Shown one piece after another: positions 25,007-49,286 of a stretch of 64,000 bases of DNA. Numbering within the stretch: the first letter of the stretch is position 1; the number at the start of each line of letters is the position of its first letter. Below the pieces are notes generated by a model, which had not been told where the DNA came from, ran no database searches, and saw only the letters and a list, made by a program, of their open reading frames with translations. The position numbers and the translations under genes are program-made. The DNA is from an uncultured Draconibacterium sp. (GTDB lineage Bacteria > Bacteroidota > Bacteroidia > Bacteroidales > Prolixibacteraceae): assembly GCF_963675585.1 (NCBI RefSeq), contig NZ_OY776413.1:1-64000 (forward strand), in the 5' to 3' direction.

Positions 25007-27829
25007 CTACTTTAAAATCGATTGAATTTGCGATACACTAAGTTCGACTGCCGGATGAAACTCAGAGCCTTCCATATAATTTACAATGCTCTTTTTCAAC
25101 TGACAGGCTTCACGCCTGTTATCCAAATCATTAAGCAAATCTACCCCGCTAATAAAAATACTTCCTTCTCCAACTTTAGCTTCAAGCAGTAATGCCAACC
25201 GGCGATTGCTCACCCAGTCGTCAATGATCCGAACAATCGGTTTCAGCTCAACCGGCAAAGAATCGAGCTGGACTGCATCAGCATGACTCATTGCATCCTG
25301 CCACTGCCAGTTTGAATAATTTTCAGTTGGGAAGTATTCAAGGGCAGGATGATCAGAATTACATAAAATACCGAGGGTATGAGGCTTCTGATTATCTGTC
25401 CAGGCAGTATTCCAGAAAATACTGGAGAAACCAACACCAACTTTTCCTCCCATTTCAGGTGACACCTTTCCCCTGCCTAGACTTAAGAGAACTTTTCCTC
25501 CTTTTTGAAGGTATTGAATCGTGGAAGAATCTAAACGATCAACCACCTTAATCTGATCATTTTTAGTTTCTTTATTTTCAGGATATACCCAAATATCCCA
25601 GGAATTGGCAAAATCACCAACGGATACTGATAAGGTTAATTTTCGCGGACTGTTTTCTTGCGGAAACTGATAAACGACATTGCCCAAGGAGATCGCATTT
25701 CCAATCTCAATATTGCGTTGCCCCAAAGTTCCATTGGCGACTACTTCACCTTTTGAAGAAATTGTCCATTCCGGATTTATATTCATTAAAGGTGCTTCTC
25801 CAAAATGTGCCACTTCTATTTTAGCCGACATGGTCTCGCCTTCCGTAAATATGCGTTTCTCCAATCGTGCCAGCGGAACAGTTGTATTACAGAAAGCACT
25901 AAACTCTTCAGGTGAAATGTAGCCTTTTTCTTCCCAAAACGCGTCGAGCACACCAACAAGTGCCGTACCCTGCCCGGGAAAATCATATAATCCCAGCAAC
26001 TGAAAGCCTGCAAAACCGGGTGTGCGTAAGGCTGCTTCAATATCTGCTTTGTAACAAAGTGCCTGTAATTTTCCCGAAGCCATTAAAAAGCTATCTGCCA
26101 ACTCTCCCATGTGATGAGCATTCAAACTTTCGCGGAATAACTCAAAGTTTTTCGCTTTCAGTACACCAGTATATTTTTCAATTTCTTTGAAATTGGGATA
26201 CACGCACCACTGGCCAATTTCGTGACTTACAACCGGTTTGCCATCACCAGGCAATTTATTACCCCAGTCGTAATCGGTTTTTGGAGCTTCCGCATTAATC
26301 AGACTGTTTAATTCCTCGCCCCATCCCTGAATTCGCGGCTGTGGCAAATTGTGATATTGGTTGACGTCCAACACTGGCCAGCCGGCAGCACCGGTATAAA
26401 CTCTGCGTGCATCTTCCGCTTTCCAATAATTTACAAAGTCAGTAAGATACTTTGTATATTCCGGACCGCCCGGCTCATTTCCGTATGTCATCATTACAAA
26501 CGAAGGATGGTTACCATATTCTTTTACAATTTGTTTGCTTTCGTCCCAAACGTATTGATCAATGGGCAATCCGCTGCCAAGCCGGGTACTCTGATTGGCC
26601 CACGAACTGCATTCCACCTGCAGGTAAACACCCATTTCATCGGCCACATTAAAGGCCGCTTCAGGTGGGCACCACGAATGAAAACGAACGTGATTCAGAC
26701 CATGTCCCTTCACCGCTTTATAAATTTTTGCCCAATATTCCGGCTCGGTGGGCGGATAACCGGTTTTTGGAAAAGCAGCACATTCGAGCGTTCCTCTCAG
26801 AAATACCGGTCTTTCATTAATGGCAAAACGTGTTCCCTTAACTTTGAAATCGCGCAAACCAAATGTCTCAGTTAATTCATCCGTTCCCGATTTTGATTGA
26901 AGTTGAAGCGAAAGTAGATACACATTCGGATTAAATTCATCCCACAACAATACATCTTCTCCCAATTTATAAGTCATACTAAGTATGTTCTCTCCCGGAG
27001 TTACGGTAAACCTAAATGTTTCCTTCCCGGTTTTTACATCAGTATTTTTTAGCTGGGCGTAAACAGGAACCGTAATTTCTACTTCTTCCGAAGAAGTATT
27101 AATAACTGCTGATTTTATTCTGATACTCTTACCCTGAACATCGGGAAAAACATCAACTTGTTTAAAATAAACCTCGTTCCTTTTTTCCAACTCAATTTTC
27201 CCTACTATTCCATTCCAGTTTGTTTGAGTATGATCAGAAACACTGTGTGAATTTTCGCCCACATCTATTTTATCGGTGCGGTTATCAATGCAAATGCTAA
27301 TACTGTTTTCACCTGTTCGAACAAATTCACCAATGTTATAAACATGAGGTGTACCCAAACTATTTTGAGAGCCAACTTTTGAACCGTTTACCCAAACAGC
27401 CGATTGCCAGTGTGGACGTTCCAGAGACAAAAACACAGGCTCCCCGTTCCACTCTTCAGGAATTGTAACTGTTTTACGGTACCAGGCTGCTCCTGTATAT
27501 TTTTTCAGTGGTTGCAACCAAAACGGGAAATGAATAGCATCAAGATCGAGATATGGCGTATAATTGGGATCTTTATACCACTCCGGATTTCTGACTCCTC
27601 CCGTCCATTTGGTTTGTAAAGTAATATCCATTCCTTTATCATTCTCAACCATCGATCCGGGAAGTATAACACTTTCGTCAAATTCCTGATTGTACCATTT
27701 TTCAGAAATTGCAACATCAAGAGAATCCATTTTAAATTGCCATTCTCCACTTAAATCAATTGTATTTTTTGTTTCAGAACTGCACGACCAAATGGCGAGT
27801 AATAAAAACAGATATTGAAAATATTTCAT
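25007..27829 (-). CDS. Glycoside hydrolase family 2 lipoprotein (beta-glycosidase)
   Basis: 940 residues. Lipoprotein leader with lipobox W-S-C (Cys16). It is a family 2 glycoside hydrolase: jelly-roll sugar-binding domain (about 25-215), immunoglobulin-like domain (about 220-335), then a TIM barrel. The acid/base Glu452 lies in Y-G-N-E-P-G-G and the nucleophile Glu537 in V-S-H-E-I-G-Q-W, so the retaining active site is intact. A further C-terminal region (about 690-940) contains beta-rich and Rossmann-like segments (S-L-G-R-G-K). Substrate (beta-galactoside, -glucuronide, -mannoside) is not decidable by eye. The lipoprotein signal places it in the periplasm or on the outer membrane, upstream of the MFS importer's work. 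Same transcript as the DUF5107 gene. Confidence 0.9.
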   Translation of the reverse strand: MKYFQYLFLLLAIWSCSSETKNTIDLSGEWQFKMDSLDVAISEKWYNQEFDESVILPGSMVENDKGMDITLQTKWTGGVRNPEWYKDPNYTPYLDLDAIHFPFWLQPLKKYTGAAWYRKTVTIPEEWNGEPVFLSLERPHWQSAVWVNGSKVGSQNSLGTPHVYNIGEFVRTGENSISICIDNRTDKIDVGENSHSVSDHTQTNWNGIVGKIELEKRNEVYFKQVDVFPDVQGKSIRIKSAVINTSSEEVEITVPVYAQLKNTDVKTGKETFRFTVTPGENILSMTYKLGEDVLLWDEFNPNVYLLSLQLQSKSGTDELTETFGLRDFKVKGTRFAINERPVFLRGTLECAAFPKTGYPPTEPEYWAKIYKAVKGHGLNHVRFHSWCPPEAAFNVADEMGVYLQVECSSWANQSTRLGSGLPIDQYVWDESKQIVKEYGNHPSFVMMTYGNEPGGPEYTKYLTDFVNYWKAEDARRVYTGAAGWPVLDVNQYHNLPQPRIQGWGEELNSLINAEAPKTDYDWGNKLPGDGKPVVSHEIGQWCVYPNFKEIEKYTGVLKAKNFELFRESLNAHHMGELADSFLMASGKLQALCYKADIEAALRTPGFAGFQLLGLYDFPGQGTALVGVLDAFWEEKGYISPEEFSAFCNTTVPLARLEKRIFTEGETMSAKIEVAHFGEAPLMNINPEWTISSKGEVVANGTLGQRNIEIGNAISLGNVVYQFPQENSPRKLTLSVSVGDFANSWDIWVYPENKETKNDQIKVVDRLDSSTIQYLQKGGKVLLSLGRGKVSPEMGGKVGVGFSSIFWNTAWTDNQKPHTLGILCNSDHPALEYFPTENYSNWQWQDAMSHADAVQLDSLPVELKPIVRIIDDWVSNRRLALLLEAKVGEGSIFISGVDLLNDLDNRREACQLKKSIVNYMEGSEFHPAVELSVSQIQSILK

Positions 27830-29518: not shown

Positions 29519-30406
29519 ATGAAAAGAAAAGAAGGATTTCCGGGTCAACTAAGTTACATTATTCCTAAAGCAACACTCGAAAAACTCGTACAAAATCCCT
29601 TGTTTGAAGATTTATACATTACCGACATTGGCTATTACCCTCGCGCACTTTATCACTACAGGGAACGTTCGGAAGGAATTAATCAATCCATTTTAATTTA
29701 TAATATCGACGGATATGGTTATATAAAAATTGCAGGCACTGAATATGTTCTTCCTCCCGATCACTTTATAATCATCCCTCAAAATAGGCCGCATTCTTAC
29801 TTTTCAGATAAAAAAAATCCTTGGTCTATTTATTGGATTCATCTGGCTGGAATAAAATCAAAATTTATTTCGAATTCCTTTTCCCAGGCCACTCCTATCG
29901 AAAGAACGAATACCTCGCGAATTAATGAACGCCTGGAGATGTTTGGCGAGATTTTTAAATGCCTTGAAATGGGGTATGGTATTGAAATTTTGGAGTACGT
30001 AAATATGTGCCTGCCCCGCCTTTTGGCTTCTTTCACCCACATAAAACAGTTTCGAAGTATTAACGAGCCCATAACCAGCGATCCAGTTGCATTGGTTATC
30101 AACTACATGTTAGAAAATCTTAAGAAAAAATTGTCGCTTGGCCAACTGGCCCGTGAAGTGAATCTTTCCAGTTCTTATTTCTCAAGAATGTTTTTAAAAA
30201 GGACCGGATTCCCACCCATCGACTATTTTAATCAGCTAAAAATTCAACAATCCTGCCGGCTTCTGGACAATAAAGAACTTACTGTTGCCGATGTGGCCAG
30301 AGAGCTTGGATTTGACGACCAGTTCTATTTTTCAAGGCTATTTAAGAAAGTCATGAATCAATCACCCAGAGAATACAGAAAAGGACGAATTCTTACTTTA
30401 TACTAA
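29519..30406 (+). CDS. AraC family transcriptional regulator
   Basis: 295 residues. N-terminal cupin-like sugar-sensing domain (about 25-165; Y-V-L-P-P-D-H-F-I-I-I-P-Q-N-R-P-H-S-Y is the typical barrel strand with metal-like His). The C-terminal AraC DNA-binding domain (about 195-293) has two helix-turn-helix units (L-S-L-G-Q-L-A-R-E-V-N-L-S-S-S-Y-F-S-R and D-V-A-R-E-L-G-F-D-D-Q-F-Y-F-S-R) and the closing S-P-R-E-Y-R. It is divergent from the MFS operon, with 217 bases between them, so it most likely controls that unit and possibly the SusCD genes that follow in its own direction. Confidence 0.93.
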   Translation: MKRKEGFPGQLSYIIPKATLEKLVQNPLFEDLYITDIGYYPRALYHYRERSEGINQSILIYNIDGYGYIKIAGTEYVLPPDHFIIIPQNRPHSYFSDKKNPWSIYWIHLAGIKSKFISNSFSQATPIERTNTSRINERLEMFGEIFKCLEMGYGIEILEYVNMCLPRLLASFTHIKQFRSINEPITSDPVALVINYMLENLKKKLSLGQLAREVNLSSSYFSRMFLKRTGFPPIDYFNQLKIQQSCRLLDNKELTVADVARELGFDDQFYFSRLFKKVMNQSPREYRKGRILTLY

Positions 30407-31191: not shown

Positions 31192-34100
31192 ATGCTATTT
31201 ACCAAATCTTTAAGAAGTGGTATGCTAATACTTATTAGCATATTCTTCTCAGTTGGTGTTGCATTTGCGCAGCAAATCACCATTAAAGGACAGGTTACAG
31301 CAGCTGGAGACGAAGCTCTTCCCGGGGTAACCGTGGTTGTTGATGGCACTGTTACAGGTACCATTACGGATATTGATGGTAATTACACCCTCGATGTTCC
31401 CGATCAATCAGCTGTTCTTATCTTCTCTTTCGTTGGTTTCAAAACCCAAAAAGTTCCGGTTGGTTCTCAAACCACCCTTAACATTCGTTTGGAAGCAGAC
31501 GTCATGGGGATCGACGAAGTAGTTGTTACCGGTTATTCTACTCAACGTAAAAGAGACCTTACCGGTGCAGTAGCTATTGTTGAAGCAGAAGAACTTACAG
31601 CACAACCAACCGGAAACGTAGCTAACCAGTTGCAGGGACGTACTGCAGGTGTTACGGTAACCGGTTCTGGTGAGCCAGGGGAAACGTCATCGGTAAGGAT
31701 CAGAGGATTTAGTTCGTTTGAGAACAACGATCCATTGTACATCGTTGATGGTGTTCCCACTCAGGACATTTCCAGTTTAAACCCTAATGATGTTCAGTCA
31801 ATGTCTGTACTTAAAGATGCGGGTGCTGCTTCCATTTACGGTTCACGTGCATCAAATGGTGTAATTATAGTAACTACAAAAAAAGGTTCGGGTGGTGTTA
31901 AAGTATCTTACAGCATGTACGCCGGTACTCAGTTAGCTGGCAAAGGTCCTGTTGACGACCTTTTAACAACTCAGGAATATGCCGACCTGCAGTGGCTAGT
32001 ATATGCAAACGATGGCACGTCTGAGACTCATCCTATTTATGGTGCTTCTTCAAACGCATCCCCAACATTACCAGATTGGGCCGCGAATACCAACTGGTAT
32101 GACGAATTAACCAATAATGCTCCTATCCAAAACCACGATATATCCCTGTCTGGTGGAAACGAAAAAGCCAAATTCTTTGCAGGTTTAGGATATTTTGATC
32201 AGGAAGGTATTTTCAACCACAACTGGGCAAAAAGATACAGCGCCCGTTTTAACTCAGAATTCAAGGTTTTAGATGGCAAATTAACTGTTGGCGAAAATGC
32301 ATCAATCGCTCACCGTTCAGGTGTAGGTGTTACCAACCTTGGTGAAGGTAGCCCGCTTCAAATGGGTGTGTACAGATCGCAATCAATTATTCCGGTTATT
32401 ATCCCGGAAGGACAAACCATAGAGGGTGGTGCTACTGCTCATACATTTGTTCCGGGAGACTGGGGAGGTACCGGTATAGCTCCACGTTTGGGTAACGCAG
32501 GTAACGTTTATGCAAACCTATACAGAGATAAGGATGATGTTAGCCAAAACCTGAACTTTACAGGAAGTATGTTTGCTAACCTGGAAATTATCCCTGGGCT
32601 GAATTTAAAAACAACTTTTGGTGGTCAGTATTACACCGGATACTACACAAACTATACTTTTGCTACTTACGAAAACTCAGAAAATACTGCCACGCCTGCT
32701 TTTACTGAAGGAGCTAGCTTTGGGGGAAACTGGACTTGGTCGACTCAATTAAATTACAGTAAGACTTTTGGCGACCACAGCCTTAGTGCACTGGTTGGTT
32801 ACGAAAGAAACAAACTGGGCATGGGTCGTAATGTTTTCGGTACTCGTGCTGATTACTTCTCGGATGATGTTGATTACCGCACACTTTCTAATGGTGCAAC
32901 TATCCAAAATGCTGCGTCAAGTGCCAACACCCCTGTTTCTCTGGCATCTGAATTTGCAAAATTGGATTACACATTTAAAGAAAAATACATTCTTAGTGCA
33001 ACTATCCGTCGTGATGGTTCATCGGTATTTAGCGAAGACACCCGTTACGGAGTTTTCCCTGCATTTGCAGGAGGTTGGCAATTGGGTGATGAAGATTTTA
33101 TGCAAGACATTGAATTTATCTCAAATTTAAAAATCAGAGGTTCGTGGGGAACCATGGGTAACCAACTGGCAGTATCTCCAATGAATGCGTTCTATTTGTA
33201 CAGTGGTACAAAAGGATATTCTGATTATGATATTGGCGGTACCATGAATTCTGCTATTCAAGGATTCAGATTGGCACGAATTGGTAATCCTGATGCAAAA
33301 TGGGAAACAAACGTGACAACCGATATAGGTTTTGAAACTTTATTGTTTGATGGTAAAATTGGACTGGTATTCGACTGGTATTCAAAACAAACCAAAGATC
33401 TGCTTTTCAATCCTGAATTGCCTGCAACCAGTGGTAATGCATCTGCTCCGTACGTAAACATTGCTTCCATGTCGAACAAAGGAATGGACATTGAATTGCG
33501 TTACAAAGACAACATTGGTGATCTTGACTTTGAAATAGCCGGTACAGTTACTACTGTAAATAACGAAATTACAGCTCTTGCCGAAGGCGTAGATTATTTC
33601 GACACTGATGTAAACAACCGTCAATCCGGAGCATTTAACCGAAATATGGTTGGTCATCCAATGTCGGCATTTTATGGATATCAGGTTATTGGTCTTTTCC
33701 AGAATGCTGCTGACGTATCATCTTCTCCGACACAAGATGGAGCAGAACCCGGTTTCTTTAAATTCCAGGATACCAACGGTGATGGCTCCATTACAGATGA
33801 CGACAGAACCTGGATTGGAAATCCAAATCCAGACTTTACTTATGGTCTAAATATTGCGTTAAATTGGAAGAACTTCGATCTTACTGCCTTTATTTATGGA
33901 TCGTATGGAAATGATATCTACAACTTTAACAGATTCTTCCTTGATTTCTGGCCATCGTTCCAGGGACAAAAAAGTAAGGATCTATTGTACAATAGCTGGA
34001 CAGAAAGCAATACTGGTGCAACAACACCAAAAGCATCCAATACCTCTAACTTCTCTACCAATACGCAAACATCAAGCTACTACGTAGAAGATGGTTCGTA

Positions 34101-34341
34101 TGCAAGATTGAAAAACCTTACTTTAGGTTACACCTTACCTGAGAGTCTTCTGTCAAAAGTTGGTATTGGTTCAGTTAGAGCATATGTACAGGGTGTTAAC
34201 TTATTCACAATTACAAATTACAGCAACCTCGATCCTGAAATTGGTGTGGATGCAGATTATGGTGATAGTGCATATGGTGTTGACACAGGTAACTATCCAA
34301 CTGTGAAACAAATTATTTTCGGACTTAATGTTTCGTTTTAA
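31192..34341 (+). CDS. SusC/RagA family TonB-linked outer membrane protein
   Basis: 1049 residues. Signal peptide about 1-26 (V-A-F-A before Q-Q). The carboxypeptidase-like domain (about 28-105) is followed by the SusC signature region and plug (about 110-225; V-T-G-Y-S-T-Q-R-K-R-D-L-T-G-A and P-L-Y-I-V-D-G-V-P) and a large 22-strand barrel ending G-L-N-V-S-F. There is no N-terminal STN domain, so it does not signal to an anti-sigma factor. SusC proteins form the TonB-driven pore that imports oligosaccharides with a SusD lid. The SusD gene starts 18 bases downstream. No SusE/F gene is present; an FG-GAP lipoprotein downstream may fill the surface glycan-binding role. Confidence 0.97.
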   Translation: MLFTKSLRSGMLILISIFFSVGVAFAQQITIKGQVTAAGDEALPGVTVVVDGTVTGTITDIDGNYTLDVPDQSAVLIFSFVGFKTQKVPVGSQTTLNIRLEADVMGIDEVVVTGYSTQRKRDLTGAVAIVEAEELTAQPTGNVANQLQGRTAGVTVTGSGEPGETSSVRIRGFSSFENNDPLYIVDGVPTQDISSLNPNDVQSMSVLKDAGAASIYGSRASNGVIIVTTKKGSGGVKVSYSMYAGTQLAGKGPVDDLLTTQEYADLQWLVYANDGTSETHPIYGASSNASPTLPDWAANTNWYDELTNNAPIQNHDISLSGGNEKAKFFAGLGYFDQEGIFNHNWAKRYSARFNSEFKVLDGKLTVGENASIAHRSGVGVTNLGEGSPLQMGVYRSQSIIPVIIPEGQTIEGGATAHTFVPGDWGGTGIAPRLGNAGNVYANLYRDKDDVSQNLNFTGSMFANLEIIPGLNLKTTFGGQYYTGYYTNYTFATYENSENTATPAFTEGASFGGNWTWSTQLNYSKTFGDHSLSALVGYERNKLGMGRNVFGTRADYFSDDVDYRTLSNGATIQNAASSANTPVSLASEFAKLDYTFKEKYILSATIRRDGSSVFSEDTRYGVFPAFAGGWQLGDEDFMQDIEFISNLKIRGSWGTMGNQLAVSPMNAFYLYSGTKGYSDYDIGGTMNSAIQGFRLARIGNPDAKWETNVTTDIGFETLLFDGKIGLVFDWYSKQTKDLLFNPELPATSGNASAPYVNIASMSNKGMDIELRYKDNIGDLDFEIAGTVTTVNNEITALAEGVDYFDTDVNNRQSGAFNRNMVGHPMSAFYGYQVIGLFQNAADVSSSPTQDGAEPGFFKFQDTNGDGSITDDDRTWIGNPNPDFTYGLNIALNWKNFDLTAFIYGSYGNDIYNFNRFFLDFWPSFQGQKSKDLLYNSWTESNTGATTPKASNTSNFSTNTQTSSYYVEDGSYARLKNLTLGYTLPESLLSKVGIGSVRAYVQGVNLFTITNYSNLDPEIGVDADYGDSAYGVDTGNYPTVKQIIFGLNVSF

Positions 34342-34359: not shown

Positions 34360-36093
34360 ATGAAAAAGATTAAAATTTCAATATCAATAATATTTGCCAT
34401 TCTGCTTGTATTGAATGGCTGCCAAAGCGAATCAGACTTCTTTGATATAAAACCCAAAGGAAGTCTGGGTGAAGACGTTTTAGCAAACGAAAAAGGTATA
34501 AATACGCTTCTGATTGGAGCATACTCCATGGTTGATGGAGTATCCGGATATGATTTCGACCTGAACGTTAGCTCCATCAACTGGGTTTGGGGAGATGTTC
34601 GCGCGGTGATTGCAAACAAAGGAACAGATGCCGGTGATGCCAGTGGTTTAAATCCAATTGTACGTTTTGAAGAACCTGCAAGCAACAGCTACGTTAACGA
34701 CAAATGGAAAGTTTATTACGATGGAATATCCAGGGTGAATGCAGTAGTTACTGTAATCAACAAAGCCTTGGAAGCCGGAACAATTACCCAGGAACAAGGT
34801 GACCTCTTCCTCAACCAGTGCAGACCATTACGTGGTTTCTTCCACATGGAATTAGTAAATAATTTCGACATGGTTCCATACATTGATGAAAATACCGACC
34901 ACGAAGCGCTTACTAACACAGAGGATATTTCGGACAAGATAATTGCTGATTTTCAGGCAGGTACAAACTTACCACAAAACATGACTGACATTGGCCGCTG
35001 GAACAAAACAGTTTGCCAGGTATTTTATGCAAAAGCATTAATGCAGTTCAAAGGCGATTACGCTGCTGCAAAAACAGTGCTTGCCGATGTGGTTGCCAAT
35101 GGAGTAAAACCCAATGGGGCAGCAATAGGTTTGGCTCTTACTTATGGTGAAATTTTTGACATTGTTGAACGCAATGGTATTGAATCAGTTTACACCGTGC
35201 AAGCTTCTGTAAACGATGGTTCAGGTGGTTTGAACGGCGCGCATGGAGCCTTGTTGAACTTCCCTTACAAAGGGGGTGCTTCCCCGGGTGGTTGCTGCGG
35301 ATTCTTCCAACCTTCTCAGGAATATGTAAATTCATTCCGTACAGATGAAAACGGATTGCCGCTTCCTAATTTTACTTACAACGACGATCCAATTAAAAAC
35401 GACCAGGGAATTGATGCTGCTGATGCATTTACTCCTGACGCCGGTAATATCGATCCAAGACTCGACTGGTCAGTTGGTCGTAGAGGAATTCCTTACTGGG
35501 ACTGGGGCCCACACACAGGTGCCGACTGGATTCGTGACCAATCGTATGCAGGACCTTATAGTCCGAAAAAACAGGTATACAAAAAATCGCAGGAAGGTGT
35601 ATATACCGAAGTGGGTGGATGGACTTCCGGTTGGACCGCAAACGGTTATCGTATGATCCGTTACTCTGAAGTACTTCTACTTCTTGCCGAGTGTCAGATT
35701 GAGACAGGTGAATTGGATCAAGCATTAAACAACATTAATAAAATACGGGAAAGAGCAGCTAATCCGGATGGATTTGTTAAAAATGAAGATGGAACTCCTG
35801 CTGCAAACTATGTTATTGGATTGTACACATCATTTGCAAACAAAGATGCTGCAACTTATGCATTACGCATGGAACGTAAACTCGAATTAGGAATGGAAGG
35901 AAAACGTTTCTTCGACCTTAAACGTTGGGGTATCGCGATTACAGAAACTTCGCGTGCTTTAACTTACGAAAAAACGATGCCTTGGGGTGGACCTCATTAT
36001 GGTAGCGCAACCGTGGGGCCGGAAGACATTGCTCTGCCTATTCCACAACGTCAAATCGACCTTAGTAATGGTATGTTGGTACAAAATAGATAA
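34360..36093 (+). CDS. SusD/RagB family nutrient-binding lipoprotein
   Basis: 577 residues. Lipobox L-N-G-C with Cys21, then a Ser/Glu/Asp stretch typical of surface export. The all-helical SusD fold shows its TPR-like helices and the conserved C-terminal pattern R-x-E-R-x-x-E-L-x-x-E-G-x-R-F-F-D-L-K-R-W (about 510-530). SusD caps the SusC barrel and captures oligosaccharide at the cell surface. It is translated from the SusC message (18-base gap) and is followed by an intrinsic terminator, so the SusCD pair forms its own unit; the GH92 gene has its own -7 box. Confidence 0.96.
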   Translation: MKKIKISISIIFAILLVLNGCQSESDFFDIKPKGSLGEDVLANEKGINTLLIGAYSMVDGVSGYDFDLNVSSINWVWGDVRAVIANKGTDAGDASGLNPIVRFEEPASNSYVNDKWKVYYDGISRVNAVVTVINKALEAGTITQEQGDLFLNQCRPLRGFFHMELVNNFDMVPYIDENTDHEALTNTEDISDKIIADFQAGTNLPQNMTDIGRWNKTVCQVFYAKALMQFKGDYAAAKTVLADVVANGVKPNGAAIGLALTYGEIFDIVERNGIESVYTVQASVNDGSGGLNGAHGALLNFPYKGGASPGGCCGFFQPSQEYVNSFRTDENGLPLPNFTYNDDPIKNDQGIDAADAFTPDAGNIDPRLDWSVGRRGIPYWDWGPHTGADWIRDQSYAGPYSPKKQVYKKSQEGVYTEVGGWTSGWTANGYRMIRYSEVLLLLAECQIETGELDQALNNINKIRERAANPDGFVKNEDGTPAANYVIGLYTSFANKDAATYALRMERKLELGMEGKRFFDLKRWGIAITETSRALTYEKTMPWGGPHYGSATVGPEDIALPIPQRQIDLSNGMLVQNR

Positions 36094-36113
36094 ATAGATT
36101 TGAAAATGATTTG

Positions 36114-36145
36114 AAAAAGGACTTTCAGAGGAGAGTCCTTTTTTT
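36114..36145 (+). terminator. Terminator of the SusCD unit
   Basis: A 10-bp stem AAAAAGGACT/AGTCCTTTTT with a 10-base loop is followed by further T residues, 20 bases after the SusD stop. Confidence 0.85.
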
Positions 36146-36346: not shown

Positions 36347-38605
36347 ATGTCGACCAAAACTGTTTTAATACTTTTAATTGTAGCCCTTTCGAGCTGTAAT
36401 CATAAATCACAAACAAATTATATTCAATTTATCGACCAAAAGATCGGGACGAATACTTCCACTACCCTTTTGGCAGATGGTAGCCAACAAATACAGGCAG
36501 CCGACGGGCAAACAATTATTGGCATTTCAGCTCCTTTTGGAATGACTCAATGGACTCCGCAATCGCAATCGGGACAACAAAAATGTGTTGCACCGTATTA
36601 TTATGGAAACATATATACCGAAGGATTCAGAGCCACGCACTGGTTAAACGGAGCATGTGAAAAAGACTATGGATCAATCTCAATACTGCCCTCTACCCTT
36701 TCCCAGGAATTAAAATTTTTGCCAACCAAAAGGCCAACTTTTTCGTTAATCTATTTCGAAGATATTTCGCCTGCCTACATGTCGGTTGGTTTTGTACAAG
36801 AACAACTTTTAACTGAAGTTACCGGAAGCAAACGTTGTGGCCTTTTCCGCTTTTCGTGGCTGGCACCGGTCGATCCGGTTATTATGATTTACATTAACAA
36901 CGACTACGACAAGGGATTTATTCATATCGATCTTGAAAATCAGGAAATTGTTGGTTACAATCCGGTATCTAAATTTTATCGAAACAAAGGGGAATCGGCC
37001 GGCATTGCGGGTTACTTTGTAGCAAAATTCAGTATGCCAATTAACGAGTATGGCACCTTTGGAAACTTTGAAAAAGAAAAAGGAAGCACCACCAGAAAAG
37101 ACCAAAGACAAATTGGTGCCTATGTTAGTTTTCAACCTGAAAACAGTGAACCCATTTTACTAAAAGTGGGTACTTCATTCACCAGCATTGAGAACGCCAG
37201 AAAAAACCTGGAAACAGAAATTGAAGACTGGAATTTTAACGCAACAAAAAATAAACTGGAAAAACAATGGAACGAAATGCTTGGACGAATTGATATTGAA
37301 ACGACTGATTCATTGGAACTAAGCAAATTCTACACAGCATTGTATCACAGCCTGCTTCATCCACGATTAATGAGTGACGTGAATGGCGATTACCCGGTTT
37401 TTAATGCTGCAGATCGTATTCAGAACTCCGGCGAGTTTAACTACTACGACGACTTTGACAGCTGGAATACTTCGCGTGCACAAATGCCTTTATTAAGTTT
37501 GATAGCTCCGGAAGAATACAAGGATATGATTGCTTCGTTGCTGCAAAAAGCAAAAGACGGAAACTGGCTACCAGCTTCTCCGCTGGCAAACAATTTTACA
37601 ATGGCTTCCACCGGAGATTATACCAGTTCAATAATTGCCGATGCAGCCGCAAAAGGATTTGATTTTGACTACAAGCTGGCATATAACTATTTAAAGAAAA
37701 ATGCAACAGATATACCCACTGCCGGAGAATTGAACGACGGCAAAGGAAGACCGGGTTCCGAATCTTACCTGACCAATGGTTTTATTCCGCTGGAAGAACC
37801 ACTCATGAATTTTCCACAAACTGAATCGCAGGTTGCGCGGGTACTCGAATATTCATACAACGATTGGTGTGTGGCTCAGCTGGCAAACAGAGTTGGAGAA
37901 AATGCAGATTACAATACACTTCTAGCAAACTCGATGAACTTTACCAATGTATTCGACGAAGACCGGGAGTGGATGAATGGTTGTTATGCCGATGGTTCGT
38001 TTGTTACGGATTTTGATCCCGACCAGGCGCAGCCATTTTTTAATAACAGAACTTCGCGCCAGTATACCTGGTATGTTCCACACAGTGTTCCTACTTTGAT
38101 CGAACTTTTGGGCGGAAAGGCTCAATTTGAAGAAAAGCTTTCTTCGTTTTTAAACTCGGCACAATACAAACATGCCGATGCCATTTCTCAACATGTTCCT
38201 TATTTGTTCAACTATATCGGTGATTGGGCAACAACTCAAAAACTGGTAAAAGCAATTTTAACGCGTGAATATGGAGCAGATGTGGGCGGATTATCGGGAC
38301 ACGATAATGCAGGACAACTATCGGCATGGTATGTTTTAAGCAGTATGGGATTTTACCCAACTTGCCCGGGAAGCAACGAATACCAGCTTTCGTCACCCAT
38401 TTTTAAGAAGGCAACACTTCATTTAAACAAAAAATATTATTCAGGAAAACGTTTAATACTCTCAACGGATCAGGAAGCTAAATCCATCATTTTTAACCAA
38501 GTAACTTTAAATAACAAAACAATTGGGAATTCAATCACTCATCGGGATATTCAACTTGGAGGAGAGTTACATTTTTCGAAAAAACAAACGTATTCCAAAG
38601 AGTAA
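36347..38605 (+). CDS. GH92-family lipoprotein with altered catalytic motifs
   Basis: 752 residues. Lipobox S-S-C (Cys17). Family 92 (exo-alpha-mannosidase) landmarks are clear: A-P-F-G-M-T-Q-W-T-P-Q-S near 62, G-F-R-A-T-H-W-L-N-G near 93, Y-D-D-F-D-S-W-N-T near 367, and G-Q-L-S-A-W-Y-V-L-S-S-M-G-F-Y-P near 656. Two usual catalytic positions differ. In the segment before R-Q-Y-T-W-Y-V-P-H the general-acid Glu of the usual E-G-x-x-x-Q-Y pattern is Asn567. The usual G-N-D/E-D-x-G base loop reads G-H-D-N-A-G (651-656). The usual P-H-D is P-H-S. It is therefore a divergent or inactive member, perhaps a binding protein. It lies between SusCD and the FG-GAP gene. Confidence 0.88.
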   Translation: MSTKTVLILLIVALSSCNHKSQTNYIQFIDQKIGTNTSTTLLADGSQQIQAADGQTIIGISAPFGMTQWTPQSQSGQQKCVAPYYYGNIYTEGFRATHWLNGACEKDYGSISILPSTLSQELKFLPTKRPTFSLIYFEDISPAYMSVGFVQEQLLTEVTGSKRCGLFRFSWLAPVDPVIMIYINNDYDKGFIHIDLENQEIVGYNPVSKFYRNKGESAGIAGYFVAKFSMPINEYGTFGNFEKEKGSTTRKDQRQIGAYVSFQPENSEPILLKVGTSFTSIENARKNLETEIEDWNFNATKNKLEKQWNEMLGRIDIETTDSLELSKFYTALYHSLLHPRLMSDVNGDYPVFNAADRIQNSGEFNYYDDFDSWNTSRAQMPLLSLIAPEEYKDMIASLLQKAKDGNWLPASPLANNFTMASTGDYTSSIIADAAAKGFDFDYKLAYNYLKKNATDIPTAGELNDGKGRPGSESYLTNGFIPLEEPLMNFPQTESQVARVLEYSYNDWCVAQLANRVGENADYNTLLANSMNFTNVFDEDREWMNGCYADGSFVTDFDPDQAQPFFNNRTSRQYTWYVPHSVPTLIELLGGKAQFEEKLSSFLNSAQYKHADAISQHVPYLFNYIGDWATTQKLVKAILTREYGADVGGLSGHDNAGQLSAWYVLSSMGFYPTCPGSNEYQLSSPIFKKATLHLNKKYYSGKRLILSTDQEAKSIIFNQVTLNNKTIGNSITHRDIQLGGELHFSKKQTYSKE

Positions 38606-38770: not shown

Positions 38771-41700
38771 ATGCGTATACTTTCGATACTATTACTTAGC
38801 CTTCTGTTTTTCTCTTGTTCAAAAACCACAAAATTCGAGCTTTTAAGTCCGGGTAAAACCGGTATCGATTTCGAAAACAAAATTGTGGTTTCCGATAGTT
38901 TCAACGTTATGACCTATGAATATTTGTACAATGGAGCCGGTGTTGGAGTTGGAGATTTAAACAACGACGGATTACAGGATTTGATTTTTGCAGGAAACCA
39001 GGTATCAAGCAAAATATACTTAAACAAGGGCAATTTTAAATTCAAAGACATCACTGCTAATTTCCCGGGAATAGACAACGATCAGTGGTTTAGCAGTGTA
39101 ACTGTTGCCGATGTGAACAATGACGGATGGGCCGATATTTATTTAACAGCCACCGGTGTAGAAAATCCTGAAAAAAACAAAAACCGTTTGTGGATAAACA
39201 ATGGTTCAATCGACGGCTCTGATCCAACTTTTACCGAACAAGCCGAAAAATACGGAATTGAAGAAACGGGACAATCGATAAATGCTGCATTTTTTGATTA
39301 CGACCTCGACAACGACCTTGATTTGTATGTAATGAGTAACACCTTAAACCAGCGCATGAATACAAACTACAGGGAAAAAGTAGTGGATGGAAGTGCCGAA
39401 AACAATGATCAACTCTACCGAAACAATGGCGACGGAACATTTACCAATGTTACTATTGAAGCAGGAATTGTTATAGAAGGTTTTGGACTTGGCCTTGCCG
39501 TTTCCGACATCAACAAAGATGGATATCCTGACATTTATATTTCCGACGATTTTATTTCAAACGATCTTTTGTACATGAATCAGGGCGACGGAACTTTTAA
39601 AAACGAAATTGCCACTTACTTGTCGTACCAAACCAAATCATCGATGGGAAACGACATTGCCGATGTAAACAACGATGGCAATCCTGACATTTATACAATG
39701 GACATGTTTCCGCAGGAATATTCCAAAAAGAAACAAACCATTAACGGTTTTAGTTACATTTTTTATGTGTTAGACGAGAAATTTGGTTTTGAGCACCAGT
39801 ATCTGCGCAACATGTTACACCTGCACAATGGCTTTATAAATGACGAAATGGTTCCGTTTAGCGAAGTGGGTCAGATAACAGGTATTTATCACTCGGAGTG
39901 GAGCTGGTCGCCACTTTTTGCCGATTACGATAACGACGGCGACCGCGACCTGATTATTGCAAATGGATATCCGGTAGATATGACGGATAAAGACTGGACA
40001 CGTTTAAAAGCAAAAGTATACGGATCGGTTGCCAACGACGAATACATGGTAAGTATGGCGCCCGTTTTAAAAGTACATAATATAGCCTACGAAAACACCG
40101 GTGAGTTAAAGTTTGAAGACCGCTCGAAAGAATGGTTGCCGGGAGTTGGTTCATTTTCTTACGGGGCATCGTTTGTTGATTTAGACAACGACGGGGACCT
40201 GGATTATGTAACCAACAACATAGACGACAAAGCCTTTGTTATGAAAAACAATACGATGGAAAAATCGAAGGGTAAAAAGAAATTCATTCAAATAAATTTA
40301 AAAGGCAAAAAGGGTAATACAAATGCAATTGGAGCCAAAGTTGAAATTTGGAGCAAGGGGAAATACCAGTTTGCCGAAAAATACCTCACCCGTGGGTTTG
40401 CCTCATCTGTTGATCCGATACTTCATTTTGGACTGGGAAGCGAAGAGACAATAGATTCTGTAAAAGTTTCGTGGCCTGCAAGCCAACATGTTTCGGTACT
40501 TCGTAATGTGGCATCCAACCAACTCATTCAAATCGACGAAACAGCTACCGATCTGTATGAAATTCAAGCCAAAAAATCAGCTGCCAACTACTTGTTTGCC
40601 AAGCGCAACGATGTTATAGATTACACACACGAGCAGGAAGATTTTATCGACTTTATTCTCGATCAGAAAATTATTCCACACAAATTTTCGATGGTTGGAC
40701 CTTCAATGGCAAAAGGCGATTTGAACGGAGATGGAGTTGATGATTTGTTAATTGGCGCGTCAAACACACAACCAACCACAGTTTATACCCAACAAGAAGG
40801 AAAATTTGAACGAGCTTATTTTGAAGGGCTTACAACAGAAAAAGACATCACCGAATCGGATGTTGCAATAGTTGATATTGATAATGATGGCGACAACGAT
40901 ATAATTGCAGTAGCTGGTGGATACGAAAATGAGAAAGAAGAAGAGTACCAACATTTTCTGTATAAAAATGAGGATGGAAAATTTACCCGACAAGAATTAC
41001 CAATACTTACATTTCCGGCTTCGGTTATTCGCCCCTGCGATTTTAACCACAACGGAAGCATTGATTTATTTGTAGGCGCCCGCATAAAAAAAGATTATTT
41101 CCCGTTCTCAAACCATTCGTGGCTTATTGCAAACAACAACGGAGAATTAAACACCAATCCAAACTTTAAACTAAACCTCGGCATGGTAACCGATGCCGTT
41201 TGGAGCGATTTTGACAAAGATGGCTGGGAAGATCTGATCATAACCCGGGAGTGGAATTCCATTGTAATTCTGAAAAACAATGAAGGACGAACTTTCGAAC
41301 CGATACTTGTTCCGGGTCTTGAAGACTACCACGGAATCTGGAATTCTGTTACAGCAGGCGATTTCGATCAGGATGGAGACGACGATTACATTGTTGGCAA
41401 CCTGGGATTAAATCACCGTTTTACGGTTAGCAATGAATACCCTCTCAGAGTTTACTCGATGGATACCGATCTGGATGGTATTATGGATCCTTTTTCAACA
41501 GCTTACTGGAAAGATCCCAACGGAGTAATGACTGAATATCCGATCAATTACCTGGATGAACTTATCTCGCAATCACGAGCTTTTCAGAAAAAGTTTAAAG
41601 ATTACACTTCATTCAGCTATGCTTCTTTTAACGAAATGTTTGACAAAGAAACACTGGACAGAGCAAAACTGGTATTGGATGTGAACACCACATCGAGTTG

Positions 41701-42058
41701 CATTTTGTGGAACGAAGAGGGCAATATTCGTTGGGAAGAATTGCCTCGTGAGCTACAAATGGCACCAATAAAACGGATGATCGTGCACGACTTTAACAAC
41801 GACAAATTCCCGGATGTGCTGCTCTCCGGTAATGATTATTCGTATGATGTAAGCACCGGAAACTACGATGCCAACAAAGGTTTTGTATTGCTCAGCAAAG
41901 GAAAAGAACACGGCTTTGAAATACTGCCACCATCAAAAAGTGGAATCGTGTTACGTGGTATGGTCAACTCGCTCGAATTATTTGACGGCGAAATCCCACT
42001 CATAATTTCAGGCAGCAACAGAAACAAAGCAGAAGTTTTTCAACTAAACAAATACTGA
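38771..42058 (+). CDS. FG-GAP/VCBS repeat and ASPIC/UnbV lipoprotein
   Basis: 1095 residues. Lipobox F-F-S-C (Cys16). Many FG-GAP/VCBS beta-propeller repeats with calcium-binding D-x-N-x-D-G-x-x-D loops occur in two blocks (about 45-470 and about 630-1090). Between them is an ASPIC/UnbV domain (about 505-575, with G-A-K-V-E-I-W and H-F-G-L-G-S). Proteins of this build are common beside SusCD genes and are thought to be surface carbohydrate-binding or assembly proteins. No enzymatic residues are visible. Starts 165 bases after the GH92 gene and is followed by a terminator. It is probably the surface glycan-binding partner of this SusCD system (inference). Confidence 0.88.
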   Translation: MRILSILLLSLLFFSCSKTTKFELLSPGKTGIDFENKIVVSDSFNVMTYEYLYNGAGVGVGDLNNDGLQDLIFAGNQVSSKIYLNKGNFKFKDITANFPGIDNDQWFSSVTVADVNNDGWADIYLTATGVENPEKNKNRLWINNGSIDGSDPTFTEQAEKYGIEETGQSINAAFFDYDLDNDLDLYVMSNTLNQRMNTNYREKVVDGSAENNDQLYRNNGDGTFTNVTIEAGIVIEGFGLGLAVSDINKDGYPDIYISDDFISNDLLYMNQGDGTFKNEIATYLSYQTKSSMGNDIADVNNDGNPDIYTMDMFPQEYSKKKQTINGFSYIFYVLDEKFGFEHQYLRNMLHLHNGFINDEMVPFSEVGQITGIYHSEWSWSPLFADYDNDGDRDLIIANGYPVDMTDKDWTRLKAKVYGSVANDEYMVSMAPVLKVHNIAYENTGELKFEDRSKEWLPGVGSFSYGASFVDLDNDGDLDYVTNNIDDKAFVMKNNTMEKSKGKKKFIQINLKGKKGNTNAIGAKVEIWSKGKYQFAEKYLTRGFASSVDPILHFGLGSEETIDSVKVSWPASQHVSVLRNVASNQLIQIDETATDLYEIQAKKSAANYLFAKRNDVIDYTHEQEDFIDFILDQKIIPHKFSMVGPSMAKGDLNGDGVDDLLIGASNTQPTTVYTQQEGKFERAYFEGLTTEKDITESDVAIVDIDNDGDNDIIAVAGGYENEKEEEYQHFLYKNEDGKFTRQELPILTFPASVIRPCDFNHNGSIDLFVGARIKKDYFPFSNHSWLIANNNGELNTNPNFKLNLGMVTDAVWSDFDKDGWEDLIITREWNSIVILKNNEGRTFEPILVPGLEDYHGIWNSVTAGDFDQDGDDDYIVGNLGLNHRFTVSNEYPLRVYSMDTDLDGIMDPFSTAYWKDPNGVMTEYPINYLDELISQSRAFQKKFKDYTSFSYASFNEMFDKETLDRAKLVLDVNTTSSCILWNEEGNIRWEELPRELQMAPIKRMIVHDFNNDKFPDVLLSGNDYSYDVSTGNYDANKGFVLLSKGKEHGFEILPPSKSGIVLRGMVNSLELFDGEIPLIISGSNRNKAEVFQLNKY

Positions 42059-45663: not shown

Positions 45664-47010
45664 TTACAGTTTAGGTTCCCACCCTGGTTCATATTCACGA
45701 TCCCAAAGTTTCATGGCATCACGATCATAAATATGTCCGTTTTCGGTGTCAACATCAAATGATTTTCCAATTCGATACCCAATGTTTGCGTAGTGCGTCA
45801 ACATCTGGCTTTTTGCACCCATGTCAATCGGAGAATTCAGAATATTTGATTTTCCGCGGATGTTGTCGAAGAAATTAACGATGTGATTATCGGTCATTCC
45901 ACCACCGCCACCGAGTGCAGTGCCGGCTTCGCCACTTGTTGATTTGCTGTCGCGAACTAATTTACCACCCCTGTCAAATAATTTATATCCTTCGCGGTTT
46001 ACAAATACCGAACCTTCCGAACCATAAATTATCGTTCCTCTGTCGGAACCATAAGTAGGGTAACCATTTCTACTTTTGCCATCCCAAACAATAATTTTGT
46101 TTTCAGGAAAGCGGAAAGTGGCATCCATGGTATCGTACATTTCCCAGCCGTCATCCAAAAAATGACGTTTGGCTGCCTGAACATTTACATGCTCCGGATA
46201 ATCGACCTGCAATGCCCAGCGAGCAATATCCAACTCATGCGTAGCATTATTTCCGGTTTCGGCTGTTCCCCATTTCCAACCGTACCAGTGCCAGTTGTAG
46301 TCCCATGTATCATGACGGTATTCTTCGCGAGGCGCAGGTCCCTGCCATAAATCCCAGTCCAATCCTTGCGGAACAGCTGCCTTTTTAGGCACAGGTGTTA
46401 CACCTCTTGTATTTGAATAAAAAGCAACGGCACGGTACACATCACCAATTACTCCTGAATGAATGTCTTTAATTATTTCGATTGATTCGTTTGACGAACG
46501 TTGTTGGTTTCCCATTTGAACCACCTTGCCGAATTTCTTTTGAAAAGCAACCAGCAATTCACCCTCGCGAGGACTGTGACTACATGGTTTTTCGATATAA
46601 ACATGTTTGCCGGCTTCCATGGCCAGCCATGTTCCGGGCGCATGCCAGTGGTCGGGAGTGGCGTTAAAAACCGCATCCACATCCTTATCGGCAAAAGCTT
46701 CCCGAATATCATTTATTAAGGCAGCCTTGCCTGTCACTTGTCCTTCCAAATGTTTGGCCACTCTTTCACGCTGACTTTGCATTACGTCGCAAATGTAGGC
46801 CAGATCAACGTTGTTGTTTTTATCTTTTATGGCATTGTAATATGCACCAACACGACGGCCACACCCCATTAGTGCAACCTGTAAACGATCGTTGGCACCA
46901 ATCACACGCGAATAACTTTTGGCTGACATACTCATTGCCGAACCCCCTAAAGTTATACCTGCCGTACCAATGGCAGCTTTTCGTAAAAAATCTCTTCTGT
47001 TTGAACTCAT
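45664..47010 (-). CDS. Gfo/Idh/MocA family oxidoreductase, Tat-exported
   Basis: 448 residues. The N-terminus has a twin-arginine signal (R-R-D-F-L-R-K at 5-11, then a mild hydrophobic stretch to about 30), so the folded, cofactor-loaded enzyme is exported to the periplasm. NAD(P)-binding Rossmann motif G-C-G-R-R-V-G (49-55), E-K-P (140-142) and a C-terminal substrate domain with N-A-T-H-E-L-D-I-A-R-W. Such Tat-exported members oxidise or isomerise sugars with a tightly held NAD. It is last in the DUF1080/isomerase/oxidoreductase operon (17-base gap). A glycoside 3-dehydrogenase or related role in the 3-keto pathway fits the neighbours. Confidence 0.9.
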   Translation of the reverse strand: MSSNRRDFLRKAAIGTAGITLGGSAMSMSAKSYSRVIGANDRLQVALMGCGRRVGAYYNAIKDKNNNVDLAYICDVMQSQRERVAKHLEGQVTGKAALINDIREAFADKDVDAVFNATPDHWHAPGTWLAMEAGKHVYIEKPCSHSPREGELLVAFQKKFGKVVQMGNQQRSSNESIEIIKDIHSGVIGDVYRAVAFYSNTRGVTPVPKKAAVPQGLDWDLWQGPAPREEYRHDTWDYNWHWYGWKWGTAETGNNATHELDIARWALQVDYPEHVNVQAAKRHFLDDGWEMYDTMDATFRFPENKIIVWDGKSRNGYPTYGSDRGTIIYGSEGSVFVNREGYKLFDRGGKLVRDSKSTSGEAGTALGGGGGMTDNHIVNFFDNIRGKSNILNSPIDMGAKSQMLTHYANIGYRIGKSFDVDTENGHIYDRDAMKLWDREYEPGWEPKL

Positions 47011-47027
47011 ATTTATTGGTTTAAAGT

Positions 47028-47864
47028 TTATTCAAATGTTGACATAATTCCTTTAACATATCCCATCGATTCGGCCATTCCTGCAAATGGGTCATCACCG
47101 TCTTTTTCAAATTCAAGTGCCAGAACGCCATCGTATCCCAAATCAACCAAATCGGTTAAAAAGGTAGTAAAATTTATTACTCCGTGACCTATTTCGCACG
47201 TTGTTCCATCGTGGGTAGCCTCAGTTACATCTTTAATATGTATATCAAAAATACGATCGAAATAGTTTTTTACATCATCCGACGGGCTTCTGCCGATTCG
47301 GGTAGTGTGGCCAATATCGATGCACAAGCCCATACGCGAATCCATGTCCTTTATTAAAACATATGCACTTTCGGCACTCGGATAAAGTTTATCGCCGGGT
47401 CCGTGATTGTGAATGGCAAGTTTAATATCGTACTCTTTCACTTTCTCTTCCACGTACGACAATAATTCGTGGTTCGGAACGCCAACAATCATATCCATTC
47501 CGGCTTTCCGGGCGTATTCAAAAGCCTGATCTACTTCGGCCTTTGTTTTCATATAAATTACACCACCTGCATATAAATCCAAACCGGCATTGTTGGTTTT
47601 TGCTACCGTTTCAGCAATTTCGGCATCGTTGGCATCCAGTTTTAAGTGAAAACTTTTAAAAGCAATATAATCAACACCCAACTGTTTCGTAAAATTTAAT
47701 GTGGTATCCAAACCAAATTTACGAAGCGAATAAGATGCAACACCCAACTTAAATTTCACTTGCTTTTTTTGAGCCGAAACTGTTGTTGTTTTTGGTTCTG
47801 TTTTACAGGCACTGAACATGCTCAACACCAAAATAGCGACAATAAATTTCTTAAATATTTGCAT
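47028..47864 (-). CDS. Sugar phosphate isomerase/epimerase-like lipoprotein
   Basis: 278 residues. Lipobox F-S-A-C (Cys20) follows a short hydrophobic leader. The mature part is a xylose-isomerase-like TIM barrel (AP-endonuclease 2 superfamily) with metal-binding residues in H-N-H-G-P-G, C-I-D-I-G-H-T and L-A-L-E-F-E-K. The family name is misleading: exported members in this setting act as 3-keto-glycoside lyases or hydratases rather than on phosphosugars. It lies between the DUF1080 gene (21-base gap) and the oxidoreductase (17-base gap), so all three share a transcript and compartment. Confidence 0.87.
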   Translation of the reverse strand: MQIFKKFIVAILVLSMFSACKTEPKTTTVSAQKKQVKFKLGVASYSLRKFGLDTTLNFTKQLGVDYIAFKSFHLKLDANDAEIAETVAKTNNAGLDLYAGGVIYMKTKAEVDQAFEYARKAGMDMIVGVPNHELLSYVEEKVKEYDIKLAIHNHGPGDKLYPSAESAYVLIKDMDSRMGLCIDIGHTTRIGRSPSDDVKNYFDRIFDIHIKDVTEATHDGTTCEIGHGVINFTTFLTDLVDLGYDGVLALEFEKDGDDPFAGMAESMGYVKGIMSTFE

Positions 47865-47885
47865 TATTATCTGAGTTTAAGATTA

Positions 47886-49286
47886 TTATAGCTTTCTGAT
47901 CTTAATGCTTCGGTAATGAACTTCATTTCCATGATCCTGTAACAAAAGATGACCGGATTGCCATGCTCCAAAATCTTCCCATTTGGCATATTTGCTTCGC
48001 GCAACCAGCGCATAAAAAGCCTGCGTTCCTCGTTCGTATTCCAACACCAAACGATTATTCAACCAGTGTTCAACATTTGCACCTACAAACTCATTTGTTT
48101 CAATGTTATTTCCTTTCAACCACTTATCCTGACGGGTTCCTTTAACAACCAAACGAGCCTGGTTCCACTGGCCCGGTTTATTTACAATTTTATTTTTATG
48201 AGCAGGAATTAAATCATACAACGAGGCAACCGTTCTGTTTCCATCGGTTCCCAATTTGGCATCGGGGTGTTTCTCATCATCTAAAATCTGGTACTCCAAA
48301 CCAATTGCCGACATATCGGAACCGTATTTTTCAGTGATAAAATATTTGATTCCGCTGTTAGCGCCTTCTGTTATTTTAAAATCGAGTTTAAATTCGAAAG
48401 TGCTGTATTCATCCAATGTTACAATGTCGCCACCATTTCCCGACTCTGCCCCATCAGCTGATTCAACAACCAGTTCTCCATTTTCAACGTGCCATCCTCG
48501 CGATGGGAATGTTTCTTTTCCAACACCACGCCAACCATTTGTAGTTTCACCGTCAAAAAGCAAAGTCCATCCTTGTGCCTGTTCCTGCGGCGACAAATAA
48601 TTGGGAATTAAATTCACTACCGGAATATCTGTCCAGGCCCTTTGCTTTAAGTTCTCAGTTTTAATCCGGATGTTACGCCATTTTATTTGTCTTCCTTCCT
48701 CCGATTTATTTCCAATAGCATGAACCTGTAAAGCAATAAATCCTTTTAAAGTTACCTCGTCGATTAAATCGGCACATGGAATTCCGTTGACCCAGGTACG
48801 AATTGAGTTTCCAATGGCTTCAATGTGATAATGATTCCATTCGCCACGACGAAATGCTTTTTGTCCTTCCGGATTCATATCCAACGGGTACAACCAGCCC
48901 CGGCGAGCCTCATCATATATTCCGCCGCTCCATGCCCTGTCTGCCGGATCCACTTCGCATTGATAACCATGCACACGGCCATTCATATAATCTGCCTTGC
49001 TCAGACTTCGGAACTGAATACCTGAATTCATTGCATTGTCAACCAACAATTCCACTTCAAATATAAAATCACCGTATTCTTTTTCGGTGGCTAAAAACGA
49101 ATTTGGAGTATTGGCCACAGTTGTACCAACAATAACTCCGTCTTTTACTTCATAAGTAGCTTTACCATTTAATTGTTCCCATCCCGACAAATCTTTACCG
49201 TTAAATAGATTCACCCATTCACCCGATTCGCCCGCGAATAAAAACGATGAGAGAAATACCAAAAGAATAGTTGTTAAATTTTTCAT
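47886..49286 (-). CDS. Two-domain DUF1080 protein (3-keto-disaccharide hydrolase family)
   Basis: 466 residues. Signal peptide 1-18 (F-L-F-A before G-E-S). Two tandem DUF1080 domains (about 22-210 and 232-466), each opening with W-x-x-L-F-N/D-G-x and containing an N-S-G-I-Q/K-F/Y segment (concanavalin-like jelly roll). The family includes 3-keto-glycoside hydrolases and lyases. The first gene of a leftward three-gene operon with an isomerase-like lipoprotein and a Tat-exported Gfo/Idh/MocA protein, a set similar to the 3-keto-glycoside cluster described in Bacteroides thetaiotaomicron (recalled, not searched). Divergent from a winged-helix membrane regulator with 134 bases between. Confidence 0.88.
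   Translation of the reverse strand: MKNLTTILLVFLSSFLFAGESGEWVNLFNGKDLSGWEQLNGKATYEVKDGVIVGTTVANTPNSFLATEKEYGDFIFEVELLVDNAMNSGIQFRSLSKADYMNGRVHGYQCEVDPADRAWSGGIYDEARRGWLYPLDMNPEGQKAFRRGEWNHYHIEAIGNSIRTWVNGIPCADLIDEVTLKGFIALQVHAIGNKSEEGRQIKWRNIRIKTENLKQRAWTDIPVVNLIPNYLSPQEQAQGWTLLFDGETTNGWRGVGKETFPSRGWHVENGELVVESADGAESGNGGDIVTLDEYSTFEFKLDFKITEGANSGIKYFITEKYGSDMSAIGLEYQILDDEKHPDAKLGTDGNRTVASLYDLIPAHKNKIVNKPGQWNQARLVVKGTRQDKWLKGNNIETNEFVGANVEHWLNNRLVLEYERGTQAFYALVARSKYAKWEDFGAWQSGHLLLQDHGNEVHYRSIKIRKL

Follow-up and report, generated by a model that had tools for sequence, protein, structure and literature searches.

The SusC-SusD-UnbV locus and its GH92 gene

The window, i.e., the whole stretch of 64,000 nucleotides that was analysed from the genome of an uncultured Draconibacterium sp., carries a SusC-SusD-UnbV locus on its forward strand. 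The locus encodes a SusC-like TonB-dependent transporter (31192..34341, +), which is recognised by TIGR04056 (894.2 bits) and Pfam, a SusD-like lipoprotein (34360..36093, +; PF07980) and an FG-GAP/ASPIC-UnbV protein (38771..42058, +). An AraC-type regulator, which is presumably linked to the locus, is encoded upstream (29519..30406, +). The gene under study (36347..38605, +) sits between the SusD and the FG-GAP/UnbV gene and codes for a GH92-family protein of 752 amino acids, which lacks the catalytic pair and is predicted to be a lipoprotein. It is a single open frame of 752 codons, free of the stops or frameshifts that mark a pseudogene. The Pfam GH92 catalytic domain was matched with 444.7 bits over profile positions 1-461 of 464, the GH92 N-domain with 137.1 bits and the NCBIfam model TIGR01180 with 434 bits (cut-off 249.55); with both domains matched over nearly the full length, the protein belongs to the GH92 sequence family. 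A PDB search with the protein (E<=0.01) matched 14 distinct sequences, all of which are solved GH92 proteins, and PADLOC returned no match.

A terminator-like hairpin followed by a T run is located directly after the SusD gene (36113..36144, +; z -3.95), and similar hairpins are found 3' of SusD in the orthologous loci L119 (z -6.38) and L120 (z -6.05). The hairpin argues against simple co-transcription with SusCD, and the GH92 gene may be expressed apart from it. A second terminator in front of the UnbV gene was considered and was not borne out by the fold (z -0.10). A promoter scan gave 31 sites compared to a mean of 20.6 in shuffled sequences, and no argument is built on it.

The closest relatives of the SusD protein (56-64% identity) are encoded in G004 and G006, which belong to the same family, and in G146 and G263 from another family, which were found in a sample of 198 genomes of the order; in the family search, the SusD relatives that come next reach at most 45% identity. 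Four orthologous loci (L119, L120, L158 and L159) have the order SusC, SusD, UnbV, with two SusD copies in L158 and a further SusD beyond UnbV in L119. The initial annotation had stated that the GH92 protein sits in a SusCD locus, which is true of the window; however, none of the four orthologous loci has a GH92 gene between SusD and UnbV. The gene therefore looks like an insertion, and an insertion in the window lineage, rather than a loss elsewhere, would be the simplest reading. The four loci span two families, and no gene other than SusD separates SusC from UnbV in them.

Two further regions of the window, both on the reverse strand, were also noted. Three proteins are encoded in the region 45664-49286 (-): a Gfo/Idh-type oxidoreductase, which weakly resembles the BT_2158 glycoside 3-dehydrogenase model (145.4 bits, cut-off 750), a second protein that is weakly similar to a model for inosose dehydratase and a third one, without a profile match, which we take to resemble DUF1080; these genes possibly form a 3-keto-glycoside pathway. 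A GH2 protein encoded at 25007-27829 (-) scores 1182 bits (cut-off 1500) with the BT4151 exo-beta-1,4-galactosidase model, to which it is close, and its gene adjoins those for a DUF5107/TPR protein and a sugar transporter.

The catalytic pair and the -1 pocket

In GH92 enzymes, a Glu is described as the general acid and an Asp as the general base (PMC5930347; PMC10167667), and Asp353, Trp390 and Met400 of BT3130 as side chains that contact the -1 sugar (PMC5930347). Alignment with phmmer places the BT3990 acid loop F-T-E-G-N-S-W-H-Y-T-W opposite F-N-N-R-T-S-R-Q-Y-T-W of the window protein and the base loop G-D-E-D-N-G opposite G-H-D-N-A-G; in the authors' numbering, Glu533 falls on N567, and Asp642-Glu643-Asp644 fall on H652-D653-N654. 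With BT3130, whose numbering was checked, Glu535 aligns with N567, Asp637 with N654, Asp353 with N374, Trp390 with S411 and Met400 with S421, and there is a one-residue gap at N566. Thus, all five named side chains are changed: general acid Glu, general base Asp and the -1 side chains of a GH92 alpha-mannosidase are missing from the protein.

The replaced residues lie in five segments. The acid loop (residues 564-575, FFNNRTSRQYTW; 38036..38071, +) carries N567 in place of the general acid, and the base loop G-H-D-N-A-G (residues 651-656; 38297..38314, +), which is common to the sister protein L033, carries N654 in place of the general base. N374, which replaces the Asp that binds O3 and O4 of mannose (BT3130 Asp353), is part of D-S-W-N-T-S-R (residues 371-377; 37457..37477, +). 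Residues 404-426 (37556..37624, +) include S411, A414, S421 and Y425, and residues 609-613 (38171..38185, +) read H-A-D-A-I instead of H-G-N-E-P. Among the 61 canonical members of the window protein's subfamily, the column of A414 is Trp in 61/61 and that of BT3130 Trp390 is Phe in 60/61. The position of D653, which is kept in the window protein, is D or E in all 61.

The initial annotation had reported Asn567 at the general-acid position, an altered base loop G-H-D-N-A-G and P-H-S in place of P-H-D, and had proposed an alignment with the solved enzyme BT3990. Its residue numbers are exact (N567, G651-H-D-N-A-G656, P578-H-S580), and the alignment identifies N567 and N654 as the acid and base columns. 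N374, S411, S421 and the exchange of H-G-N-E-P for H-A-D-A-I go beyond that description, so that the observation on the catalytic residues is confirmed and is stronger than first described.

Alteration of either catalytic residue of AnGH92A is reported to abolish activity, and the third Asp of the base motif is described as conserved in every GH92 enzyme examined in the same study (PMC12858847). Loss of the acid alone does not equal zero activity, since acid variants of BT3990 and NnGH92 retain residual hydrolysis (PMC10167667), and the presence of the catalytic pair is also no proof of activity, since AnGH92B keeps both Glu and Asp, yet showed no detectable hydrolysis in the reported tests (PMC12858847). 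Judged by its residues, the window protein is very probably dead as an alpha-mannosidase.

Conservation among GH92 relatives

A search of 140 genomes of the family gave 71 matches at E<=1e-150, 66 of which were read; five were left out (in G007, G080, G092, G093 and G139). Acid and base are kept in 61 of the 66 subfamily members read, plus L081, and the canonical set of 61 rows, from which L081 and four rows with a lost base are excluded, has E567, D654 and D374 throughout (61/61 each). Both catalytic residues are also present in all 14 other GH92 open reading frames of the window genome, in 14/14 full-length distant rows (12 from the window genome and 2 others) and in 28/28 GH92 proteins from other genomes of the order, the best 28 of a longer list. 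Outside the subfamily, the D374 column is more variable, with 14 D, 2 G and 1 N in 17 distant rows, three of which are fragments. The four base-loss rows are the window protein (N), L033 of G047 (N), L041 of G055 (N) and L044 of G097 (S). At the acid position, Glu is kept in L041, while L044 has Asp and L033 has Gly.

When columns with at least 97% identity among the 61 canonical rows are taken as near-invariant, 27 of 126 such positions are changed in the window protein, compared to a median of 1 and a maximum of 5 in leave-one-out controls with the canonical rows (n=61). The corresponding numbers are 27 for L033, 27 for L041, 18 for L044 and 30 for L081. The initial annotation had pointed out that the changes cluster around the expected active site. 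In the window protein, there are 17 changes at 43 positions in pocket segments versus 10 at 83 positions outside (Fisher p 0.001); the p value is descriptive, as motifs and literature were used to define the segments once the alignment had been seen. L081 (G136:C7:42613-44826) is a separate case, in which acid and base are kept and the pocket is eroded; its specificity is possibly altered.

No relative with more than 54% identity to the window protein was found in the survey, the nearest differing at 46% of its positions. At E<=1e-190, searches of the order (393 genomes) and the class (395 genomes) gave no match beyond the window genome, G051 and G133, and a contig scan for close relatives with query P0001 yielded two at 28-29%. 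The DNA pattern N-x-G-Q-x-S-A-W had 16 matches in the 140 family genomes, those within a GH92 gene being confined to the window genome, G047 and G055, and a stricter D-N pattern gave one further match in 395 genomes of the phylum, which lies outside any GH92 gene; both patterns detect only Asn at the base position. The initial annotation had suggested looking for other family members with the same Asn/His-Asp-Asn set: L033 has the loop G-H-D-N-A-G, but Gly at the acid position. Among the matches listed in open-licence PubMed Central, no title or beginning of an abstract pointed to a paper on a catalytically dead GH92 group.

Evolutionary history and retention of the gene

In a tree of 44 rows and 616 columns, from which the pocket columns had been removed, the window protein and L033 are sisters (bootstrap 97, SH-aLRT 91), and L041 and L044 stand apart. 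The two sisters share only 50% identity, and both frames are open. Base loss requires three changes on the tree (5-95% bootstrap range 3-3), and the four base-loss rows form one group in 0% of 200 bootstrap trees; one loss followed by two regains of the base, in place of three losses, is unlikely. The AU test rejected a single clade of all four degenerate copies (p 0.0007) as well as a clade of the window protein, L033 and L041 (p 0.016), tests that involve long branches and groups that were defined once the first tree had been seen. The end branches of the four base-loss rows measure 0.43-0.69 compared to a median of 0.17, and other long end branches are those of L081 (0.87), L066 (0.85) and L083 (0.64).

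The window protein and L033 share 17 residues that are absent from 23 near canonical rows; among them are N374, S411, A414, P469, Q491, A497, H652 and N654, at positions invariant in the 23. The count of 17 is weak when taken alone, because other pairs of odd rows share 8-16 residues. The acid loop and the loop 609-613 differ between the two proteins, so that much of the pocket is not conserved as one new site, which argues against one shared ligand. The window protein has gained D371 and D611, where L033 has S and N, and L033 has Glu at the place of Met400.

The gene of L033 adjoins a gene for a 293 aa protein and SusC-SusD, like the canonical gene in L073. This arrangement is not universal, as both neighbours are absent from the 20 kb read at the canonical gene of L074. 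The canonical paralogue in the window genome, L002, is flanked in L072 by genes for a DUF4861 protein, a short-chain dehydrogenase, a KduI-family protein and a 292 aa protein. Proteins of 274-298 aa are encoded near canonical or degenerate GH92 genes in L069, L071, L072 and L073 and have an N-terminal pattern in common by eye; a Pfam search with the copies of L069 and L073 gave no match.

In a simulation of unconstrained mutation (0.05 changes per base, roughly 10% of the residues altered), 0 of 100 frames were left open, and the long open frame argues against decay. Although the end branch amounts to approximately 0.7 changes per site, 73 of 83 near-invariant sites outside the pocket are kept, and no stop has arisen. 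The degenerate variant is the sole match at E<=1e-150 in G047, G055 and G097 (7/12, 7/11 and 5/5 candidates scored), so that it is probably not a spare copy in these genomes; the window genome also carries the canonical L002. The window protein appears to have been kept as a protein, presumably by selection.

N-terminus and cell location

The N-terminus contains a lipobox, A-L-S-S-C17 (36383..36397, +), which agrees with the lipoprotein nature claimed in the initial annotation and predicts the mature N-terminus C-N-H-K-S-Q. An acidic export signal has been described in Capnocytophaga canimorsus, Bacteroides fragilis and Flavobacterium johnsoniae (PMC5080379), genera other than that of the host. 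The mature window protein has no acidic residue at positions +2 to +6, and the SusD protein of the same locus starts with C-Q-S-E-S-D. A simple lipobox pattern is present in 59 of 83 GH92 rows, and the number of acidic residues at +2 to +6 is zero in 21 of them, one in 33 and two in 5. The absence of a recognised export signal thus weakens the surface role that had been considered plausible. The protein is at least as likely to face the periplasm as to lie on the surface.

Possible roles of the GH92 protein

The initial annotation had suggested a pseudo-enzyme used for glycan binding, or a different reaction. As far as alpha-mannosidase activity is concerned, a pseudo-enzyme is well supported by the sequence: acid, base and -1 side chains are gone, the frame and most conserved positions are kept, and a sister protein has the same base loop. 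The best explanation, which we regard as fairly probable, is that this GH92 protein without acid, base and -1 pocket, placed between SusD and UnbV, is a non-catalytic lipoprotein that aids SusCD. In this reading, a GH92 alpha-mannosidase was stripped of its acid, its base and the residues that bind mannose at -1, with most conserved positions staying in place, and the altered gene copy became part of a SusC-SusD-UnbV import locus, where it separates SusD from UnbV. The resulting non-catalytic lipoprotein would help SusCD either by means of a rebuilt pocket, which holds or presents a glycan, or through protein contact. We infer a functional link with SusCD, and glycan binding by the protein is possible; any binding would probably not use the classical -1 mannose contacts, because those side chains are also gone.

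The loss of these side chains bears on the proposal of a classical mannose lectin, in which catalysis is dead and mannose is still bound at -1 with Ca2+. The exchanges Glu to Asn and Asp to Asn would keep hydrogen-bonding side chains, but the Asp, the Trp (Phe in the subfamily) and the Met of the -1 site are replaced as well, L033 having Glu at the Met place, and we regard such a lectin as quite unlikely. The losses could also be an artefact of alignment, with the real catalytic carboxylates located at other places in the chain, and the one-residue gap beside the acid loop in the BT3130 alignment would fit this. However, the columns are identical in the phmmer alignments with BT3990 and BT3130 and in the MAFFT alignment of the subfamily, and the published numbering is reproduced, which makes an artefact very improbable. 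The protein could also be a decaying or selfish leftover, i.e., a duplicated mannosidase that has no job and is merely unbroken so far. The intact paralogue L002, the long end branches of the degenerate copies and the recurrence of pocket loss in other lineages would fit this, but the conservation outside the pocket over so long a branch without a stop, and the variant being the sole match in three genomes, make it unlikely.

The protein might instead be an enzyme with a different reaction, in which D371, D611, H652 and D653 would do acid-base work on another glycoside, a lyase substrate or a phosphodiester. D653 is kept, H652 is new and common to L033, and D371 and D611 are gained in the window protein; a His/Asp dyad has been reported for GH117 (PMC11574756), and a mannose-alpha-1,4-PO4-mannose mannosidase reportedly belongs to GH92 (PMC9522356). 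However, L033 lacks D371 and D611, and the acid position is Asn in one sister and Gly in the other. The phosphate type, moreover, presumably keeps the base, which is gone from the window protein, and a different reaction is accordingly improbable. A related idea, which we rate as a long shot, is that the rebuilt pocket, in which both the window protein and L033 have the pair His652-Asp653, serves a new reaction or senses a new ligand for the SusCD-UnbV importer; if true, this would be a new functional class carved from the GH92 fold. A non-catalytic accessory of SusCD thus remains the reading that we favour.

Significance and comparison with known systems

Family membership alone readily leads to the annotation of a GH92 protein as an alpha-mannosidase, and the window protein, which has been kept without both catalytic residues and the sugar pocket, is a warning against this practice. 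Base loss arose three times on the tree within one bacterial family and provides natural variants of a well-studied inverting enzyme. The window protein is also a testable case of a glycosidase that may have turned into an accessory of a glycan importer.

Like the window protein, BT3990 (2wvx) and BT3130 (6f8z) consist of GH92 over approximately the whole chain (phmmer, 274.3 and 278.9 bits); the window protein has other residues in place of their general acid, their general base and their -1 side chains. Its nearest canonical relatives are L002 and the related L020-L029 with 52-54% identity, which, in contrast to the window protein, keep E567, D654, D374 and H-G-N-E-P. The degenerate L033 of G047 resembles it in G-H-D-N-A-G, N374, S411 and A414, but has Gly at the acid position and other changes of its own. 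The mannose-phosphate-mannose-cleaving protein of Cellulosimicrobium cellulans (2xsg), which was matched in the PDB search, is also a member of GH92 and presumably has Gln at the acid position and a kept base. The window protein, whose base is lost as well, does not conform to this type. In its proposed role as a non-catalytic lipoprotein beside SusD, it would resemble the surface glycan-binding proteins of SusCD loci, from which it differs in belonging to the GH92 family and in having no recognised export signal.
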